From Pseudomonadota bacterium (lineage in GTDB: Bacteria; Pseudomonadota; Gammaproteobacteria; Xanthomonadales; Rhodanobacteraceae): DNA of 64,000 nucleotides. A model generated the notes under the pieces. The model had not been told where the DNA came from, searched no databases, and worked only from the letters and a program-made list of their open reading frames with translations. Position 1 is the stretch's first letter. Every line of letters begins with the position of its first letter. Shown here piece by piece: positions 16,363 to 33,554 of the stretch. Location of the stretch: NCBI GenBank assembly GCA_018240505.1, contig JAFEFQ010000248.1, positions 1 through 64,000 on the forward strand, in the 5' to 3' direction. The translations under genes were made by a program, and so were the position numbers.

Positions 16363-17160
16363 ATGCCCCGCCCCGCCGTCAATGTCGCGGTCAAGGCCGC
16401 GCGCGCCGCCGGCAACATCATTCTGCGCAACCTCAATCGCGTGGAGGGACTCAACATCGAGGAAAAATCCCGGCACGACTATGTCAGCGAAGTCGACAAG
16501 CTGGCCGAGGCCGAGATCATCAAGGAACTGCGCCGCGCCTATCCCGATCACGGCTTCCTCGGCGAGGAGTCCGGACAGAAGGGCCGCACCGAAAAAGTCT
16601 GGATCATCGACCCGCTCGACGGCACGCACAACTACCTGCGCGGCTTCCCGCATTTCTGCGTATCGATCGGCTTCCGCGACCACGGCGACCTCGTCTACGG
16701 CGTGGTCTACGATCCGCTGCGCGACGAGATGTTCACCGCGAGCAAGGGCGACGGCGCCTTTCTCAACGACCGCCGCATCCGCGTGACCAAACGCGAAGCG
16801 CTGCAAGGCGCGCTCATCAGCACCGGCTTTCCGTATCGGCAGCGCCGGCATCTCGACGCGCAACTCGACATGACCCGAGCCCTGCTCGCCGAGGCCGAGG
16901 ACATCCGCCGCACCGGATCGGCCGCGCTCGACCTCGCCTATGTCGCCGCCGGACGTCTGGACGGCTATTTCGAAACCGGCCTGCATCCCTGGGACATGGC
17001 CGCGGGAGTGCTGCTCGTGCGCGAGGCCGGCGGCCAGTGCAGCGACTTCGCCGGCAAGGCCGGCATGCCCGACAACGGCAATCTCATCGCCGGCAACCAT
17101 TTCGTCGCCGCGGCGATGGCGAAGGTGATCGCGGCGCACTCGCCGCCGACGCTGCTGTAA
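16363..17160 (+). CDS. suhB: Inositol monophosphatase family protein SuhB
   Basis: A 265-residue Mg2+-dependent phosphatase of the IMPase family. Metal-site motifs are visible: GEES near residue 67, IDPLDGTHNYLRGFP near 83-97 and HPWDMAAGVLLVREAGG near 210-226. Length matches E. coli SuhB, which also takes part in rRNA antitermination complexes. The start ATG 16363-16365 (MPRPAVNVAVKAARAAG) is preferred to upstream in-frame codons inside the repeat. Whether the main role here is enzymatic or in transcription cannot be told. Confidence 0.93.
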   Translation: MPRPAVNVAVKAARAAGNIILRNLNRVEGLNIEEKSRHDYVSEVDKLAEAEIIKELRRAYPDHGFLGEESGQKGRTEKVWIIDPLDGTHNYLRGFPHFCVSIGFRDHGDLVYGVVYDPLRDEMFTASKGDGAFLNDRRIRVTKREALQGALISTGFPYRQRRHLDAQLDMTRALLAEAEDIRRTGSAALDLAYVAAGRLDGYFETGLHPWDMAAGVLLVREAGGQCSDFAGKAGMPDNGNLIAGNHFVAAAMAKVIAAHSPPTLL

Positions 17161-17186: not shown

Positions 17187-18395
17187 TCAGCGCGCGTTTG
17201 CCACCGCACGCGAATCGAGAAAGGATGCGGCGCGATCCAGCGCCGCCTCGATGTCCGCACTCAAATCCTCGATCGCCTCGATGCCGACCGAAAGGCGCAG
17301 CAGGCCGTCGCCGAGGCCGGCGACGCGGCGCGCCTCGGCGTCCATCGCAGCATGCGTCATCGTCGCCGGATGCGCGACCAGGCTCTCGACGCCGCCGAGC
17401 GATTCGGCGAGGGTGAAGCTCTGCAGGCCGTTGACGAAGGCCTCGACCGCGGGCACGCCGCCGGCGAGGTCGAAACTCAGCATCGCGCCGAAACCGCGCT
17501 GCTGGCGCGCGGCGAGCGCGTGCTGCGGATGGCTGGCGAGGCCCGGGAAGTACACTTTTTCCACGGCCGGATGCGCGTCGAGGATCTCGACGATGACCGC
17601 GGCGTTTTCCTGGTGCGCGCGCAGGCGCGGCTGCAGGGTGCGCAGGCCGCGCAGCGTGAGATAGCTGTCGAACGCGCCGCCCGACACGCCGAGGCAGTTG
17701 CACCACCAGGCGAGTTGCTCGCCGACCGCGGCGTCCTTCCAGATCACCGCGCCGCCGACGACGTCGGAATGGCCGTTGAGATACTTCGTCGTCGAGTGCA
17801 CGACGATGTCGGCGCCTAGCGCGATCGGCTGCTGCAGGGCCGGCGACAGGAAGGTGTTGTCGACCACGACGAGCGCGCCGACCTGATGGGCGAGGCGCGA
17901 CGCCGCGGCGATGTCGACGATGCGCAGCAGCGGATTGCTCGGCGTCTCGATCCAGACGAGCTTCGGCTTGCACGCGAGCGCGGTCGCGAGCGCGACCGTG
18001 TCGTTGAAGTCGACGACCGCGCAACGGTACAGGCCGCGCTTGGCCTGATTGACGAACAGGCGGTAGCTGCCGCCGTAGCAGTCGTGCGGCACGATGATCA
18101 GATCGTCCGGCCCGAGCTGCGAGGTGACGAGCGTGATCGCGGCCATGCCGGTCGCGGTGACGACCGCGCCGACGCCGCCCTCGAGATCGGCCAGTGCGCC
18201 GGCGAGCACGTCGCGGGTCGGATTGCCCGAGCGCGAATAGTCGTATTCGCGCTTCTTGCCGAAGCCTGCGAAGCTGTAGTTCGTCGACAGGTACAGCGGC
18301 GGCATCACGGCGCCATGGGCCGGGTCCTTGTCGACGCCAGCGCGGGCGGCGATCGTGGCGGCTTGACGGGCGGGTTTCTCGGCGACGTGACTCAC
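17187..18395 (-). CDS. metB: Cystathionine gamma-synthase / O-succinylhomoserine lyase
   Basis: A 402-residue PLP enzyme of the Cys/Met metabolism family that joins activated homoserine with cysteine. The start is a GTG (complement of 18393-18395) with GGAG 8 nt upstream. The PLP-binding segment HSTTKYLNGHSDVVGG holds the Schiff-base lysine, and YSRSGNPTRDVLAGALADLEGG is the family's N-terminal signature. It lies 17 nt after metX, so substrate synthesis and use are cotranscribed under the SAM riboswitch. A cystathionine gamma-lyase activity cannot be excluded by sequence alone, but the metX partner favours synthesis. Confidence 0.92.
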   Translation of the reverse strand: MSHVAEKPARQAATIAARAGVDKDPAHGAVMPPLYLSTNYSFAGFGKKREYDYSRSGNPTRDVLAGALADLEGGVGAVVTATGMAAITLVTSQLGPDDLIIVPHDCYGGSYRLFVNQAKRGLYRCAVVDFNDTVALATALACKPKLVWIETPSNPLLRIVDIAAASRLAHQVGALVVVDNTFLSPALQQPIALGADIVVHSTTKYLNGHSDVVGGAVIWKDAAVGEQLAWWCNCLGVSGGAFDSYLTLRGLRTLQPRLRAHQENAAVIVEILDAHPAVEKVYFPGLASHPQHALAARQQRGFGAMLSFDLAGGVPAVEAFVNGLQSFTLAESLGGVESLVAHPATMTHAAMDAEARRVAGLGDGLLRLSVGIEAIEDLSADIEAALDRAASFLDSRAVANAR

Positions 18396-18412
18396 TGTGC
18401 TTCTCCGGGCTT

Positions 18413-19444
18413 TCAGACGTGCAGACAACGTTCGAACAACGCGCCCACGATCGCTTCTTCCTTGAGGAAGGCGTCGTGGCCGTAGTCCGAGGAAATTTCG
18501 ACCCATTCGCAGGCGGCGCCGGCGCGGGTCCGGTATTCGCGCAGCAGCGACAGCGGCACGGTCAGGTCGTCGCGCACCGCGAACAGCGTGGTCGGCACGC
18601 GCACCGCGGCCGGGTCGATGGCATGCGCATCGAGCGAGCGGCCGAGGCAACGGTAGGCGTCGGCATCGAAGCGGCGCACGAACTTGCGGCCGTGATGCTC
18701 GACCCAGCCGATCACCCCGTCCGCGTGTGCGTCGGCAGGCGACTCGCCGGCGAAGCGCTGCTCGACGCCCTCGGCCGTGCGATAGCCGAGCACGGCGAGC
18801 GAGCGAGCCAGCGCGAGCGCCTCGGGCGAAGAAGCGCCGAGATCGAGGATCGCACGCTGCACGTGACGCAGCGCGAGGCCGAACTGCGCGGCCTTGTGCG
18901 CCGCGCTGAGCAGGACGAGATGGCGCAGGCGCTCGCCGAGCAGCGCGGCGAGATGCTGGGCGACGTTGCCGCCGTAGGACGCGCCGACGACGAGATGGAC
19001 GCGGCGCACGCCGAGGCGGTTCAGGAGCAGCAGCAGCGCGCGCGCCTGGTCGGCGGTCGAGATGGCCGGGAAACGCTCTGCGTCGACGGACGAGGCCGGG
19101 CCGCTGGAGGCATCGCATCCGCCGAGCCAGTCGATGCCGACGAGGCGATAGCGCGTCGTGTCGAGCGCCTTGCCGGCGCCGCATTGCGCTTCCCACCAGC
19201 CGCGGCCGTCGCGCGCGACCGGGCGGCGATGCGCGGAAATGCCGCCGAGCACGACGATGACCGGCGCATCGGCGGGGCCGGTGCAGGTCCAGGCCAGGCG
19301 GGCGTCGTCCAGGGTCGCGCCCGACTCGAGCGCGAAGGACTGCGGCAGGGCGAGCGTGCCTTCCAGCCACTGCACGGCCGGCGTGGCGGCCTCGGGGCTG
19401 AAGCGGAGTTGCGGTTCGGCGCTCATTTCGGTCTCGTCTTTCAT
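18413..19444 (-). CDS. metX: Homoserine O-acyltransferase MetX (probably succinyl-specific)
   Basis: A 343-residue alpha/beta-hydrolase-fold acyltransferase that activates homoserine for methionine synthesis. The nucleophile elbow GASYGGNVAQHLA is at about residue 165, and the late catalytic residues fall in FAVRDDLTVPL and SDYGHDAFLKEE. Known Xanthomonadales MetX proteins of this type use succinyl-CoA (MetXS), and the metB partner fits that; substrate choice here is inferred. The 19444 ATG is the first good start after the riboswitch; a second ATG lies at 19424-19426. Confidence 0.9.
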   Translation of the reverse strand: MKDETEMSAEPQLRFSPEAATPAVQWLEGTLALPQSFALESGATLDDARLAWTCTGPADAPVIVVLGGISAHRRPVARDGRGWWEAQCGAGKALDTTRYRLVGIDWLGGCDASSGPASSVDAERFPAISTADQARALLLLLNRLGVRRVHLVVGASYGGNVAQHLAALLGERLRHLVLLSAAHKAAQFGLALRHVQRAILDLGASSPEALALARSLAVLGYRTAEGVEQRFAGESPADAHADGVIGWVEHHGRKFVRRFDADAYRCLGRSLDAHAIDPAAVRVPTTLFAVRDDLTVPLSLLREYRTRAGAACEWVEISSDYGHDAFLKEEAIVGALFERCLHV

Positions 19445-19488
19445 CTACAGCCCCAACGAGACGAATGCAGCGGAAACCTCGCGTTCGC

Positions 19489-19630
19489 CTCATCTTTACG
19501 GGGTCCACCGCGGCTTGAAGCTGCCGCGGACCTCGCAGGAATTGGCACCAATCGCAGGACCCGATTCAATCGGATTCTGCAAAGGTTGCCCCGGCGTCGC
19601 TGGGCCTGTCCCTCAGCCGGTCTTGATGAG
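19489..19630 (-). promoter_or_regulatory. SAM-I (S-box) riboswitch upstream of metX-metB
   Basis: On the minus strand the leader opens with CTCATCAAGA (19630-19621) and closes with the complementary GATGAG (19494-19489), forming stem P1. Between them lie hallmark SAM-I segments: TGAGGGA, then GGCCC, then CCGGGGCAACC, a stem-loop of GATTGAATC type, and TTGGTGCCAATTCCTGC. The order and spacing match the S-box core that binds S-adenosylmethionine. About 45 nt separate it from the metX ATG, and no T-tailed terminator is visible there, so control may be on translation start. Confidence 0.88.
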
Positions 19631-19640
19631 TACGGAGCGT

Positions 19641-19669
19641 ATGCTACGGGCGTACATTTCGGATGTCAA
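19641..19669 (-). promoter_or_regulatory. Sigma-70 promoter of metX-metB
   Basis: On the minus strand a perfect -35 TTGACA (19669-19664) is followed after exactly 17 nt by TAGCAT (19646-19641). The predicted start site lies a few bases before the first base of the SAM-I riboswitch, which agrees with a riboswitch leader. Confidence 0.85.
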
Positions 19670-19692
19670 GACGTTTAGGCGTTTAGACGGCT
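19669..19692. promoter_or_regulatory. Tandem octamer operator (met-box-like) at the metX promoter
   Basis: Three octamers in phase, AGACGTTT, then AGGCGTTT, then AGACGGCT on the plus strand, end at the -35 of metX. Each is within one or two bases of AGACGTCT, the E. coli MetJ met box, which also works as tandem 8-bp repeats. Related arrays occur at 26135-26150 and 32368-32391. The binding protein is not identified. Confidence 0.6.
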
Positions 19693-26134: not shown

Positions 26135-26150
26135 AGACGTTTAGCCGTCC
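26135..26150. promoter_or_regulatory. Two met-box-like octamers upstream of cysJ
   Basis: AGACGTTT and AGCCGTCC lie in tandem 24 nt before the cysJ start, in the same 8-bp phase as the arrays at metX and cysB/cysK. Confidence 0.5.
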
Positions 26151-26173: not shown

Positions 26174-28084
26174 GTGTCCGCCCAACCGAACCGCCTCCTG
26201 TCGCCCTTCTCCGAGGACAAGCTCGCCCTTTTGGCGCGCCTGACCGAGGGCCTCGACACCGATTCGCTGTACTGGCTGTCCGGCTACGTCGCCGGCGTGG
26301 CGGCGACCTCGCGGCACGTGCCGCTGAGCGCCGCGGTCGCGGCCAACCTGGCCGTGCCGCTGCCTGCGGCCGTCGCGCCGGCCGTCGAGGCGCAGGCGTC
26401 GACCCGGCTGACCATCGTCTACGGCAGCCAGACCGGCAATGCCAAGCACCAGGCCGAGGCGCTCGCGCGCGAAGCCGAGGCCGCGGGGCTCAACGTGCGC
26501 CTCGTCCGCGCCGACGCCTACGGCACGAAGGAACTGGCGAGCGAGCGCCTGCTCTACGTCGTCATCTCGACCCAGGGCGACGGTGATCCGCCCGATGATG
26601 CGCGCGGCTTCGTCGAATTCCTCAAGGGCAAGCGCGCGCCGAAGCTGCCGCAGCTCAAGTTCGCCGTGCTGGCCTTGGGCGATTCGAGCTATCCGCAGTT
26701 CTGCGCGATCGGCACGCAGATCGACGCGCGCCTGGCCGAACTCGGCGCGCAGCGCCTGTTCGCGCGCGGCGACGCCGACCTCGACATCGCCAGCGTCGCC
26801 GCGCCATGGTCAAAGCAGGCGCTCGAACAGGCGCGCGACTTGCTCAGGAGCGAGACCCCAACCGCCCCACGCGCGGCCACGGTGACGCCGCTGCGCAGCG
26901 CCGTGCACGCGCATGCGCCCGCGTGGACGCGCGAGAAGCCGTTCGCGGCGCCACTGCTCGCCAACCAGCGCATCAGCGCGCGCAACGGCACGAAGGACAT
27001 CCGCCACATCGAGCTCTCGCTCGAAGGCTCGGGCCTGAGCTATCAGCCCGGCGACGCGCTCGGTGTCGTCGCGACGAACCCGCCGGCGCTGGTCGATGCG
27101 ATCCTCGGCGAACTCGGGTTCGACGGCGAACGCGCCGTCGCCGTGCAGGGCGAATCGCATTCGCTGCGCGAGTGGCTGCTGCGCAAGCGCGAGCTCACCA
27201 CGCTGTCGAAACCGTTCCTCGTCGAGCACGCCAGGCGCGCGAAGAACGAGGCGCTGGCCCACGCGCTCGCGCCCGAGGGCAAGGACGCGCTGCGCGAATT
27301 GCTCGGTGACTACCAGCTCGTCGACGTGCTGCGCGCATTCCCGGCGGCGTGGTCGGCCGAGGAATTCGTCGCCGCGCTGCGTGTGCTCACCCCGCGCATG
27401 TATTCGATCGCGTCGAGCCAGAAGGCGGTCGGCGACGAAGTCCATCTCACCATCGCGGTGCTCGACTACGAAAAGTTCGGGACCCGGCACGTCGGCGCGG
27501 CGTCACAGTTCCTGGCTACTCTCCCGGAAGACGCCGACGTGCCGGTCTTTATCGAAGAGAACGAGCGCTTCCGCCTGCCGGCCGACGCCGCACGCGACGT
27601 GATCATGATCGGTCCCGGCACCGGCGTCGCGCCGTTTCGCGGCTTCCTGCAGGAGCGCGCGGAGACCGGCGCCGCGGGGCGCAACTGGCTGTTCTTCGGC
27701 AATCCGCATTTCCGTACCGATTTCCTCTACCAGGTCGAATGGCAGAAGGCGCTCAAGGACGGCAGCTTGCACAGGCTCGACCTCGCCTTTTCGCGTGATC
27801 AGTCCTCATTGAGAAGTCCGCACACGGATGTGCGGGCTCTTGCGGGGGAACCGCATAAATACTACGTCCAGCACAGCCTGCGCCGTCGCGGCAGGGAACT
27901 CTACGACTGGATCGCGAACGGCGCGCATGTCTACGTCTGCGGCGACGCGACGCGCATGGCCGCCGACGTCGACGCCGCGCTGCGCGACATCGTCATCGAA
28001 CACGGCAGCAAGTCCGACGAGGACGCGCGTGATTTCCTCAACCAGCTCGCGACCGAGCGCCGCTACGCGCGCGATGTGTACTAA
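26174..28084 (+). CDS. cysJ: Sulfite reductase flavoprotein alpha subunit
   Basis: A 636-residue NADPH-dependent flavoprotein that passes electrons through FAD and FMN to CysI for sulfite reduction. The GTG start (MSAQPNRLLSPFSEDKL) matches the E. coli N-terminal layout. A flavodoxin domain (YGSQTGNAKHQAEALA at about residue 79) is followed by the connecting domain, the FAD motif RMYSIASS, and an NADPH-binding domain with GPGTGVAPFRGFLQER and VYVCGDATRMA, ending RYARDVY. Residues 544-560 are an extra 17-residue insertion between FSRDQ and HKYYVQH not found in E. coli CysJ; it encodes an 18-bp palindrome. First gene of cysJIH. Confidence 0.96.
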   Translation: MSAQPNRLLSPFSEDKLALLARLTEGLDTDSLYWLSGYVAGVAATSRHVPLSAAVAANLAVPLPAAVAPAVEAQASTRLTIVYGSQTGNAKHQAEALAREAEAAGLNVRLVRADAYGTKELASERLLYVVISTQGDGDPPDDARGFVEFLKGKRAPKLPQLKFAVLALGDSSYPQFCAIGTQIDARLAELGAQRLFARGDADLDIASVAAPWSKQALEQARDLLRSETPTAPRAATVTPLRSAVHAHAPAWTREKPFAAPLLANQRISARNGTKDIRHIELSLEGSGLSYQPGDALGVVATNPPALVDAILGELGFDGERAVAVQGESHSLREWLLRKRELTTLSKPFLVEHARRAKNEALAHALAPEGKDALRELLGDYQLVDVLRAFPAAWSAEEFVAALRVLTPRMYSIASSQKAVGDEVHLTIAVLDYEKFGTRHVGAASQFLATLPEDADVPVFIEENERFRLPADAARDVIMIGPGTGVAPFRGFLQERAETGAAGRNWLFFGNPHFRTDFLYQVEWQKALKDGSLHRLDLAFSRDQSSLRSPHTDVRALAGEPHKYYVQHSLRRRGRELYDWIANGAHVYVCGDATRMAADVDAALRDIVIEHGSKSDEDARDFLNQLATERRYARDVY

Positions 28085-28229: not shown

Positions 28230-29984
28230 ATGAGTGCGACGCTCGCCAATTTATCCCCCGTCGAAGGCATCAAGACGCGCAGCCGGCGCCTGCGTGGCAC
28301 GCTGCTGGAAAGCCTCGCCAACGAGGTCACCGGCGCGATCGCCGACGACGACACGCAGCTGATCAAGTTCCACGGCAGCTACATGCAGGACGACCGCGAC
28401 CTGCGCGAGGAGCGGCGTGCGGCGAAGCTCGAGCCCGACTACAGCTTCATGATCCGTACCCGGCTGCCGGGCGGTGTCGTGACCCCGGCGCAGTGGCTAA
28501 AGCTCGACGCAATCGCGCAGCGCTACGCCAACGGCACGCTGCGCCTGACCACGCGCCAGGCATTCCAGTTCCACGGCGTGATCAAGCGCGAGTTGAAGGC
28601 GACGCTGCAGGCGATCAACGCCGCGCTGATCGACACGGTCGCGGCCTGCGGCGACGTCAACCGCAACGTCATGGTCGCGGCGAATCCGCTCGCCTCCGAA
28701 CTGCACGCGCGCGTGTACGCCGACGCGGCGAAGCTGTCGGAATTCCTCAAGCCGAAGACGCGCGCCTACTACGAAATCTGGCTCGACGAGGAAAAGGTTG
28801 CGGGGTCCGGCGAGGAATACGAGCCGATCTACGGGGCGGTCTACCTGCCGCGCAAGTTCAAGGTCGCGTTTGCCGTGCCGCCGCTGAACGACGTCGACGT
28901 GTTCGCCAACGATCTCGGCTTCATCGCCGTCATCGAGAACGGCGAGTTGCTCGGCTACAACGTCGTCGCCGGCGGCGGCCTCGGCGCGACGCACGGCGAG
29001 CCGGCGACTTACCCGCGCCTTGCCGACGTGCTCGGTTTCGTCGCGGCGGACCGGGTCAACGCGATTGCCGAGGCCGTGGTCACGACGCAGCGCGATTTCG
29101 GCGGCCGCGCCGACCGCAAGCACGCGCGCCTGAAGTACACGATCGACGACCGCGGTCTCGACTGGTTCAAGGCCGAAGTCGAACGCCGCTTCGGCGCCCC
29201 GCTGCGCCCGGCGCGGCCGTTCCGCTTCGAGCACAACGGCGATCGCTTCGGCTGGGTCGAAAGCGCGCCGATTCAAAACGGGACTGGGCGCGCGCACCTG
29301 ACCCTGCGCATCGAGGCCGGCCGTGTCGCCGACCGCGGCGAGCAGCGCCATCTGTCCGCGCTGCGCAGGATCGCGCAGATCCATGCGAACGAGGACTCCG
29401 GCCTCGAATTCCGCCTGACGCCGAACCAGAACCTGCTGATCGCGAACGTGCCGAACGAGGATCGCGCCGAGATCGACGAGATCGTGGCCGAGCACCGCCT
29501 CGATCTCTATCGCACGGCGACGCCACTGCGCCTCAACGCGCTCGCCTGTGTCGCGCTGCCGACCTGCGCGCTGGCGATGGCCGAGGCCGAGCGCTATCTG
29601 CCCGACTTCACCGGCAAGGTCGAAGCGCTGCTCGACCGGCACGGCCTGCGCGATGCGGACATCCATCTGCGCCTGTCCGGCTGCCCGAACGGCTGCTCGC
29701 GGCCGTATCTCGGCGAAATCGCGCTGATCGGCAAGGCGCCGGGCCGCTACAACCTGATGCTCGGCGCCGACGCGCGCGGGCAGCGGCTCAACCGCCTGCA
29801 CCGCGAGAACGTCGACGAGGCGCAGATCCTCGCCACGCTCGACGAGCTGTTCGCGAGCTACGCCTCCGCGCGGGCGCAGGGCGAAGCCTTCGGCGATTTT
29901 CTCGTGCGCAGCGGCGTGCTCGCCGAGGCTCACTACAAAGTCATTCCGGTGACGCTGCTCGAGCCCTCCGCCGCAGCAGCGTGA
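28230..29984 (+). CDS. cysI: Sulfite reductase hemoprotein beta subunit
   Basis: A 584-residue siroheme and [4Fe-4S] protein that reduces sulfite to sulfide. The cluster cysteines are visible as [11 protein letters not shown] and [12 protein letters not shown] near residues 435-490, with the ferredoxin-like repeats before them. It is full length. It lies 145 nt after cysJ with a repeat in between, and 112 nt before the preferred cysH start. With cysJ and cysH it makes sulfide for CysK. Confidence 0.97.
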
Positions 29985-30096
29985 ACCCAGGAGCGAAGAT
30001 CCCATGTTGAACTGTTCGATCCAAGCCTGCGACGAATCCGCCTCGTTCGAAACCCACCGCAACCGCGTCAAGAACCACAGCGCCGGAGAGCGCGCC

Positions 30097-30816
30097 ATGA
30101 AACTGCCCGACATCAACACCGCTGGCGAGGATCCGACCGCCCTCGTCGAACTCAACACCTGGCTCGAAAGCCGCAACGCGCACCAGCGCATCGCCTGGGC
30201 GCTGGACAATCTGCCCGGCGAGCACGTGCTGTCGTCGAGCTTCGGCGCGCAATCGGCGGTGCTGCTGCACCTGGCCACGCGCGAACGCGCCGACATTCCG
30301 GTCGTGCTGATCGACACCGGATACCTGTTTCCGGAAACCTACCGCTTCGCCGACGAACTGACCGAAAAATTGTCGCTCAATCTCAAGGTCTACCGGCCGC
30401 AGATCGGCATCGCCTGGATGGAAGCGCGCCACGGCAAGCTCTGGGAAAACGGCGTCGACGGCATCACCGAATACAACGCCCTGCGCAAGGTCGAGCCGAT
30501 GCGCCGCGCGCTGACCGAACTCGGCGCCGGAACCTGGATCGCCGGCCTGCGCCGCGTGCAGTCGACCACGCGGCGCAACTCGAACGTGCTCGAGGTGCGC
30601 GACGGCCGCTGGAAACTGCATCCGCTGATCGACTGGAGCGACCGTGACATCTGGCAGTACATGCAGCAGCATGGCCTGCCCTACCATCCGCTGTGGGAGC
30701 AGGGCTACGTCTCGATCGGCGACGTGCACACCACGCGCGCGCTGGGCGCCGGCATGCGCGAGGAGGACACGCGCTTCTTCGGGCTCAAACGCGAGTGCGG
30801 GTTGCACTTCGACTGA
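30097..30816 (+). CDS. cysH: Phosphoadenylylsulfate (PAPS) reductase
   Basis: A 239-residue thioredoxin-dependent reductase making sulfite from PAPS. The nucleotide-binding [15 protein letters not shown], the [11 protein letters not shown] segment and the C-terminal catalytic KRECGLHFD are present. The Cys-Cys pairs of iron-sulfur APS reductases are absent, so it is the E. coli PAPS type. The ATG at 30097 has GGAG at good spacing and gives the usual length; an in-frame ATG at 30004, with AGGAG before it, would add 31 residues. The stop TGA lies in a hairpin shared with the convergent gene. Confidence 0.94.
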
Positions 30817-31231: not shown

Positions 31232-32227
31232 TCAGGCCGCCCGGGCGAGGAGTTTCTTCTGCAACTCCGACCAGTACGGCGGCTGCGGCCACTGCGCCGG
31301 CTCCTCGCCGGCCAGCGCGCGCTGCAGGTCGCGCTGGTCGATCTGCGGTGCGATCAGCTCGGCCAGTGTCGCGGCGTAGGCGCGCAGCACGCGGTCGCGG
31401 CGCAGGACCAGCCAGGTCGTGCACTCGGGGAACAGGCCCTCGGCTTCGATCTGGTGCAGGTCGCGCGCGTCGTCGGCGGTGAACGCCATGTCGGCGAAGA
31501 TGCCGACGCCGAGACCGGCGCGCACGTAGGTCTTGATCAGGTCGGCGTCGCGCGAGGTGCAGGAGAAGCGCGGCACGATGCCGGCGGCGGCGAACGCACG
31601 CCGCAACGACGACTCCGGGCGCAGCGAGGATTCGTAGCTGACCAGCGGCTCGCCGTCGAGGTCGGACAGTTTCAGCGGACGATCGAGCGCGGCCAGCGCA
31701 TGCCCGTTCGGCACGACCACGGCGCGACGCCAGCGGAACAGCGGCACGGCGAGGCCGTCGCTCGGCGAGGCGCCCGTGGTCGAGATGATCGCGAGATCGG
31801 CCTGGCCGCGCTCGAACAGGCCCATGACCTGGGCGTCGCCGAGCGGCTTCAGGTGGACGTTGACCGCCGGATAGCGGTGCTTGAGCGTCGCGATCGCATG
31901 CGGCAGGACGAAGCGCGCCTGCGTGTGCGTGGTCGTGATCGTCAGTTCGCCCTTGTCGTCGCCGCGCAGGTTCGCGGCGAGCGCGCGGATGTTGCGCGCC
32001 TCGGCGAGGATGATGCGCGCGCGGTCGATGACCTGTTGCCCGGCGGGCGTGATCGCGGAAAGGCTTTTGCCCTTGCGCGCGAACAGTTGGAAACCGAGCT
32101 CGTCCTCGAGCTGCTTGAGCTGCTTGGACAGGCCGGGCTGGGTGGCGTGGACCTGGTCGGCGGCCTGGGTGATGTTGAGGCCGGCGTCGGAAATGGCGAC
32201 GAGGTAACGGAGCTGGGTCAGGGTCAT
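31232..32227 (-). CDS. cysB: LysR-type regulator CysB
   Basis: A 331-residue LysR-family regulator. The winged helix covers residues 1-65 (MTLTQLRYLVAISDAGLNIT, then ATQPGLSKQLKQLEDELG). It is followed by the CysB-type ligand domain with ITTTHTQARFVLPHAI, the signature of the CysB/Cbl group that senses N-acetylserine or sulfate-starvation signals. Length agrees with CysB. It is divergent from cysK across a 307-nt regulatory gap and near the cysJIH, cysK and sulfate transport genes it is expected to activate. Confidence 0.93.
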   Translation of the reverse strand: MTLTQLRYLVAISDAGLNITQAADQVHATQPGLSKQLKQLEDELGFQLFARKGKSLSAITPAGQQVIDRARIILAEARNIRALAANLRGDDKGELTITTTHTQARFVLPHAIATLKHRYPAVNVHLKPLGDAQVMGLFERGQADLAIISTTGASPSDGLAVPLFRWRRAVVVPNGHALAALDRPLKLSDLDGEPLVSYESSLRPESSLRRAFAAAGIVPRFSCTSRDADLIKTYVRAGLGVGIFADMAFTADDARDLHQIEAEGLFPECTTWLVLRRDRVLRAYAATLAELIAPQIDQRDLQRALAGEEPAQWPQPPYWSELQKKLLARAA

Positions 32228-32347: not shown

Positions 32348-32376
32348 AGCATAACGGTTGGTTATTTGGGCGTCCA
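32348..32376 (-). promoter_or_regulatory. Probable cysB promoter
   Basis: On the minus strand TGGACG (32376-32371) and TATGCT (32353-32348) are spaced by 17 nt. The -35 begins at the last T of the octamer AAACGTCT, exactly as at the metX promoter. Confidence 0.55.
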
Positions 32377-32391
32377 GACGTTTAGACGGCC
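32368..32391. promoter_or_regulatory. Tandem met-box-like octamers in the cysB-cysK gap
   Basis: GGGCGTCC, then AGACGTTT, then AGACGGCC on the plus strand keep 8-bp phase and overlap the candidate cysB -35. The middle unit is identical to the first unit of the metX and cysJ arrays. Confidence 0.55.
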
Positions 32392-32534: not shown

Positions 32535-33554
32535 ATGGACATCCGCAAGGACTTCGCCGACGCGGTCGGCCGCACTCCGCTGATCCGGCTGCGCCGCGCC
32601 TCGGAGCTGACCGGCTGCGAGATTCTCGCCAAGGGCGAGTTCGCCAATCCGGGCGGATCGATCAAGGACCGCACCGCGCTCGGCCTGCTGCTCGACGCCG
32701 AAAAAACCGGCGCGCTGCGCCCCGGCGGCACTATCGTCGAAGGCACCGCGGGCAATACCGGCATCGGCCTCGCCCTGCTCGGTGCGAGCCGCGGCTATCG
32801 TACGATCATCGTCATGCCGGATTCGCAGTCGAAGGAAAAGATCGATGCGCTGCGCCTGACCGGTGCGGAGGTGCAGCTCGTCCCGGTCGTGCCGTACACC
32901 GACCCCGGCCATTATTCGCACACCGCACAGCGGCGCGCGCAGCAACTCGACGCGAGCGACCCCGGCAGCGCCTGGTTCGCGAACCAGTTCGACAATACCG
33001 CGAACCGCGAAATACACGAAGCCACGACCGGCCCGGAGATCTTCGTCCAGACCGCGGGCCGCATCGACGGTTTCGTCTGTGCCGCGGGCACCGGCGGCAC
33101 GCTCGCCGGCGTCGGCCGCTTCCTCAAGGCGAACAAGCCCGGCGCCACGACCGCGCTGGCCGATCCGGCCGGCTCGGCGCTGGCGAGCTACGTCAATACC
33201 GGCGAGTTGAAGGCCGAAGGCAGCTCGATCACCGAGGGCATCGGTTACAGCCGCATCACGGCGAACTTCAAGGACGCGCCTATCGACCTGGCCTGGTCGA
33301 TACGCGACGAGGAATCGATGCCGCTCGTGCACGCGCTGCTCGCCGAGGAGGGCCTCAACGTCGGCGGATCCAGCGGCGTCAACATCGCCGGCGCGATCCG
33401 CCTTGCGCGCGCGCTGGGCCCCGGCCACACGATCGTCACCGTGCTTGCCGACGCAGGCACGCGTTATCAGGCGAAGCTGTTCAACCCCGCATTCCTGCGG
33501 GCGAAGAACCTGCCGGTGCCGGCGTGGCTCGATCGGGCCTTTCCGCAGGCGTAG
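32535..33554 (+). CDS. cysK: Cysteine synthase (O-acetylserine sulfhydrylase)
   Basis: A 339-residue PLP enzyme that makes cysteine from O-acetylserine and sulfide. The PLP lysine is in NPGGSIKDRTALG, the substrate loop in EGTAGNTGIGLALLG, the phosphate loop in AAGTGGTLAGVG, and GGSSGVNIAGAIRLA is conserved. The ATG at 32535 starts MDIRKDFADAVGRTPLIRL. Its TAG stop is contributed by the palindromic repeat at 33551-33630. The long form is closer to CysK than to CysM; a cystathionine beta-synthase role is unlikely in this context. Confidence 0.93.
   Translation: MDIRKDFADAVGRTPLIRLRRASELTGCEILAKGEFANPGGSIKDRTALGLLLDAEKTGALRPGGTIVEGTAGNTGIGLALLGASRGYRTIIVMPDSQSKEKIDALRLTGAEVQLVPVVPYTDPGHYSHTAQRRAQQLDASDPGSAWFANQFDNTANREIHEATTGPEIFVQTAGRIDGFVCAAGTGGTLAGVGRFLKANKPGATTALADPAGSALASYVNTGELKAEGSSITEGIGYSRITANFKDAPIDLAWSIRDEESMPLVHALLAEEGLNVGGSSGVNIAGAIRLARALGPGHTIVTVLADAGTRYQAKLFNPAFLRAKNLPVPAWLDRAFPQA

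Follow-up and report, generated by a model that had tools for sequence, protein, structure and literature searches.

Which regulator reads the octamers upstream of metX? The first-pass annotation of this locus had called it unknown. MetJ was not expected in Xanthomonadales, and the SahR-like regulator SamR had been proposed for the methionine genes of the order, the latter in agreement with the literature (PMC4239095). We examined the octamers in the window (the whole stretch of DNA analyzed, 64,000 nt) and in related genomes. Judged from the sequences, they very probably constitute an operator of MetJ, a repressor that depends on SAM.

Met boxes at the metX promoter

Positions 19669-19692 read exactly AGACGTTT-AGGCGTTT-AGACGGCT, or AGCCGTCT-AAACGCCT-AAACGTCT on the minus strand, which is the sense strand of metX. 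The three octamers are in phase and run into the -35 hexamer as first described, the final T of the AAACGTCT array being base 1 of the hexamer. They are arranged in tandem without gaps, as in MetJ operators, and depart from AGACGTCT at one, two and one positions, the two departures falling in the middle octamer, AGGCGTTT. The elements of the promoter region are as follows.

19669..19692, minus strand: met-box array, proposed MetJ operator of metX (top octamer-matrix match in the window; conserved)
19661..19668, minus strand: degenerate fourth in-phase octamer, TGACATCC, over the -35 (retained in congeners having this promoter)
19664..19669, minus strand: -35 hexamer TTGACA (promoter search)
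19641..19646, minus strand: -10 hexamer TAGCAT, after a 17-nt spacer (promoter search)

The combination TTGACA/17 nt/TAGCAT was the sole promoter-like match in the region. It would place the start of metX transcription at about 19634.

The window was scanned with an octamer matrix made from metX promoters of other genera only. The metX site ranked first in the 64 kb for tandems of both two and three octamers. Its three-octamer score was 31.4, against a maximum of 11.6 in 400 simulated 64-kb sequences matched to the window in trinucleotide make-up. The exact 24-mer (up to three mismatches allowed) occurred once in the genome. Frequent occurrence at unrelated genes had been named beforehand as a sign against the octamers. 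The tandem consensus AGACGTCTAAACGTCT, with up to two mismatches, was found at four places in the 3.5-Mb genome, three of them met/cys promoters; the reversed control had no such match. The octamers are real, and chance falls far short of explaining them.

metJ in this genome and in the order

A metJ gene was found in the same genome (G000:C267:2-169; 97.2 bits, over the Pfam cut-off). Only about the first 60 residues are visible (56 were read), because the contig ends there. This truncated fragment scored 98.6 against the NCBIfam MetJ equivalog cut-off of 110, which the MetJ of a congener passed with 136.6. The congener protein aligned to E. coli Met repressor structures at 6e-34. It has a ribbon-helix-helix core with the DNA-contact strand and the SAM-site helix, the KKxTVSIP strand and the RHATNS helix being conserved, and the fragment in this genome reads identically over its 56 residues.

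MetJ matches were present in 35 of the 36 Rhodanobacteraceae genomes (34 above the Pfam cut-off), and in two of the 24 genomes from other families of the order, both belonging to family f12. Among the matches listed for a 298-genome sample of the order, MetJ was confined to Rhodanobacteraceae, f12 and genus g48 of family f9. Named relatives of the protein come from Dyella, Luteibacter, Rhodanobacter, Frateuria, Dokdonella and Mizugakiibacter, which marks the window's family as Rhodanobacteraceae. In published surveys SamR is assigned to Xanthomonadales, and MetJ to other groups of gammaproteobacteria (PMC4239095); X. campestris 8004 is without metJ (PMC6230763). No papers on MetJ in Rhodanobacteraceae were found in the open-access literature. 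These matches extend the taxonomic range of MetJ and overturn the expectation that it would be missing here. With metJ in the genome, there is no need to leave the regulator unnamed. The search for candidate regulators that had been suggested thus succeeded for metJ; for SamR, this assembly (86% complete) gave no match.

In a MetJ tree built on 81 columns, the proteins of Rhodanobacteraceae, f12 and other gammaproteobacteria were separate, with no source of the Rhodanobacteraceae metJ indicated. The matches in two f12 genomes (G064:C14:78913-79143 and G070:C24:11602-11841) each contained one in-frame TGA, and are possibly pseudogenes or sequence errors.

Co-occurrence of the boxes with MetJ

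Comparison of the regions upstream of metX orthologs had been put forward as a check that the octamers might fail. Instead, tandem met boxes abutted the -35 in all 26 Rhodanobacteraceae promoters that carry the metX riboswitch (described below), with scores of 16.6 to 29.8 when the matrix was made leaving one genus out at a time. Tandem boxes were absent from all 16 S-box promoters of MetJ-less genomes, where the scores were -2.4 or lower. The difference between the two sets gave a Mann-Whitney P of 7e-8, a value that overstates independence, since the comparison is largely of one clade against others. Independent checks came from f12 and g48. Pairs of MetJ boxes lay there at metB, metY and cysB in f12 and at metX-, metY- and cysB-type genes in g48.

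In 11 of the 16 MetJ-less promoters, the palindrome ATCkCTnnATCnnGATnnAGmGAT was found with 0-3 mismatches at an equal distance to the aptamer (measured start to start, 56-63 nt for the palindrome and 51-64 nt for the boxes). This agrees with the published SamR motif, a 24-bp palindrome with ATC and GAT separated by 10 nt (PMC4239095). SamR, an ArsR-methyltransferase of the SahR type, is favored as the reader of the octamers by the role proposed for it in regulating methionine genes of the order (PMC4239095) and by its gene in 54 of 60 genomes, nearly all of Rhodanobacteraceae included. However, its palindrome, ATC-N10-GAT, is unlike the metX octamers. The best match at metX had 6-10 mismatches in all 26 family promoters (six at the best place in the present one), as opposed to three or fewer in the 11 outgroup promoters. 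In this genome a SamR-type palindrome lies about 45 bp upstream of metF instead (G000:C230:8185-8208); in relatives it lies at ahcY (G002) and metE (G035), genes named from their translations. We consider it extremely improbable that SamR reads the octamers.

MetR, or some ribbon-helix-helix protein as yet unknown, might also be considered, as LysR regulators of methionine genes occur in the order (PMC4239095). The MetR box TGAA-N5-TTCA, with one mismatch allowed, was not found within 3 kb of metX, and its matches in the window were no more than expected by chance. Because MetJ and the boxes occur together and go missing together, no other reader protein is needed, and we find this alternative scarcely credible.

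The riboswitch leader

The transcript predicted from the metX promoter begins with an element that the first-pass annotation had not listed, as it had not listed metJ or the two further box sites described below.

19487..19632, minus strand: SAM-I (S-box) riboswitch aptamer in the metX leader (RF00162)
18413..19444, minus strand: metX, homoserine O-acyltransferase (PRK08775 MetX, 2.3e-80, under the curated cut-off)
17187..18440, minus strand: metB-type gene, cystathionine gamma-synthase/O-succinylhomoserine thiol-lyase (TIGR02080, 607 bits, above the cut-off; reading frame, start codon not fixed)

The aptamer scored 66.4 bits against a gathering score of 44.4 and covered the full Rfam model, 1-108. 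Its 5' end coincides with the predicted start of transcription. The leader is about 190 nt long, no terminator-like site was found on its coding strand, and the metB-type gene follows metX directly.

The riboswitch alone might control metX, the octamers contributing to promoter strength or being relics. The met operon of X. campestris offers a precedent: its control lay in the 5'UTR, and methionine had no effect on its promoter (PMC6230763, PMC7270179). Xanthomonas, however, is without metJ (PMC6230763). Moreover, two genomes of the window's own genus (G001 and G003) have the boxes and the promoter at metX with short leaders in which no S-box match was found, apparently having lost the riboswitch and kept the MetJ operator. 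Boxes with MetJ spacing also recur at cysB, cysJ, metJ and hom, where promoter strength is not needed to explain them. Control by the riboswitch alone is therefore very unlikely. No SAM-I riboswitch was found in f12 or g48, and thus, across the order as sampled, MetJ and SAM-I were observed together in Rhodanobacteraceae alone.

Other predicted MetJ sites

After metX, the next best tandem sites of the matrix scan lay among genes of sulfur assimilation.

26135..26150: tandem met boxes immediately upstream of cysJ (matrix scan; conserved)
26174..28084, plus strand: cysJ, sulfite reductase flavoprotein (Pfam domains)
28230-29984, after cysJ: cysI (Pfam domains)
30091-30816, after cysI: cysH (Pfam domains)
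31232..32227, minus strand: cysB-type LysR regulator (best NCBIfam models PRK12680 and CysB, both under cut-off)
32368..32391: three in-phase met boxes between the divergent cysB and cysM/cysK genes (among the window's three best sites)
32538..33554, plus strand: cysM/cysK-type cysteine synthase (PF00291)

Both sites recur in most Rhodanobacteraceae genomes, the boxes at cysB/cysM in the equivalent place. None were found at cysB in G036, G047 and G056. At cysJ they were absent from G036, G047, G049, G054 and G038, and none were found in the MetJ-less outgroups. Boxes, some of them weak, were also present about 165-195 bp upstream of metJ in most relatives. Others lay at hom (G001, G003 and G012), metK (G008 and G014) and asd (G014), these names being taken from reading the translations and not from a family search. 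The members of this predicted regulon were identified by searching for the consensus, with up to 2-3 mismatches allowed, and by inspecting targeted loci, rather than by a whole-genome matrix scan.

The sites at cysJ and cysB/cysM suggest that sulfate assimilation is under MetJ, and control of cysB and cysJ by MetJ is predicted. Of these targets, asd was earlier predicted in Aeromonadales (PMC4239095); cysB is not mentioned in the text of either comparative MetJ paper (PMC3228920, PMC4239095).

Some matches were left uncounted. An octamer match at 16951 was inside an inositol-monophosphatase-like gene, and matches to AGACGCATAAACGTCT in G002, G004 and G008 looked like conserved coding sequence. 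Two f12 genomes (G046 and G055) contained many clustered copies resembling AGACGTCTAAACGTTT, perhaps a repeat element similar to met boxes. These box-like matches came several per contig in short stretches and were accompanied by many control matches. Since they looked repetitive, the count for these genomes was restricted to the sites in the promoters of metB, metY and cysB.

Two further sites were observed. A near-perfect palindromic tandem met box (G000:C152:12972-12987) lay about 60 bp upstream of a gene for a DmpA-type peptidase/GDSL esterase-like fusion. In another genome (G018:C1:117404), tandem boxes lay upstream of an amino-acid permease gene, possibly encoding a methionine transporter.

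A model for control of metX

With a probable MetJ operator at the promoter and a riboswitch in the leader, metX is predicted to be under double repression by SAM. By established MetJ biology, ample SAM would cause MetJ-SAM dimers to bind cooperatively, aligned on the in-phase octamers. As these end on the -35, and the degenerate fourth octamer covers it, RNA polymerase would be kept off the metX-metB promoter. A transcript that escaped would begin with the SAM-I riboswitch and bind SAM again. By analogy with Xanthomonas, the riboswitch probably conceals the ribosome-binding site and would block translation of metX when SAM is bound. The gene would thus be under two SAM sensors in series, MetJ and the riboswitch. 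MetJ is predicted to act also on cysB/cysM, cysJ and metJ itself, with hom, metK and asd as additional targets in relatives. SamR would retain the remethylation branch (metF here). The picture suggested by these sites is a division of labor, with homocysteine formation and sulfur supply under MetJ and remethylation under SamR.

This arrangement was compared with four known systems. The MetJ regulon of Enterobacterales, Vibrionales, Pasteurellales and Alteromonadales (PMC3228920, PMC4239095) shares the MetJ core, the tandem AGACGTCT octamers and the targets metJ, metX/metB, metK and asd. The present case differs in its lineage, which is not listed there, in a Lys/Ala-rich MetJ tail, and in a target that has a SAM riboswitch as well.

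The second is SAM-IXcc of the X. campestris met operon (PMC7270179, PMC6230763). Both have a SAM-I aptamer in the long leader of a homoserine O-acyltransferase-metB operon, the two operons being homologous, with leaders of 190 nt in X. campestris and about 190 nt here, and the action of the X. campestris riboswitch is mainly translational (PMC6230763, PMC7270179). X. campestris has no metJ, and its promoter shows no response to methionine, whereas here a MetJ operator is predicted on the promoter.

As for the SamR regulon of Xanthomonadales (PMC4239095), the SamR gene and palindrome persist in Rhodanobacteraceae (at metF, and at metE or ahcY in relatives), but the predicted MetJ operator stands at metX where other families have a SamR-type palindrome.

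The fourth is btuB of Yersinia and others (PMC3228920), where, as predicted here, a MetJ operator lies directly upstream of a riboswitch leader. There the two ligands are SAM and B12, sensed by a cobalamin riboswitch; here SAM would serve both sensors. The authors of that study suggested that no other gene in their set was also controlled by a riboswitch (PMC3228920).

In the familiar view, a methionine gene has one SAM sensor, which is MetJ in enterics and an S-box RNA in Firmicutes and Xanthomonas. In Rhodanobacteraceae a single transcript appears to be guarded by two sensors of SAM, one a protein and the other an RNA. Within the open-access literature, two sensors of one ligand on a single gene appear to be new. 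Since the family includes culturable genera (Dyella, Luteibacter and Rhodanobacter), the question of why SAM should be sensed twice, whether for range, speed, noise or leak, is directly testable.

A lysine- and alanine-rich tail on MetJ

The MetJ of relatives revealed an unusual, tailed form of this classic repressor. Its core ends in TGQ(P/Q)LPTDEELRR and is followed by a tail of 65-82% Lys+Ala+Arg, about 37 to 312 residues long as far as the contigs allow (KKAAKKPAAKKAAKKTAVKK is an example). In place of this tail, MetJ of enterics has about 28-29 residues past the core, a C-terminus that the MetJ family models do not require. Across Vibrio, Pseudoalteromonas, Aeromonas and enterics the C-terminus is about 28-32 residues with 14-31% Lys+Ala+Arg. 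These data are from relatives, the tail of the present MetJ lying beyond the contig end and outside the assembly. No papers on MetJ with a lysine-rich tail were found in the open-access literature.

The metX promoter is a clear candidate for a fixed promoter at which one transcription factor has replaced another. We tentatively suggest that the tailed MetJ of Rhodanobacteraceae replaced SamR site for site at metX, kept the SAM-I riboswitch and added cysB, and that the tail adds DNA affinity or bridges operators, a scenario that we hold to be possible rather than probable. The tail resembles histone H1, and a role in DNA binding would be a guess. The MetJ of f12 ended after 79 residues.
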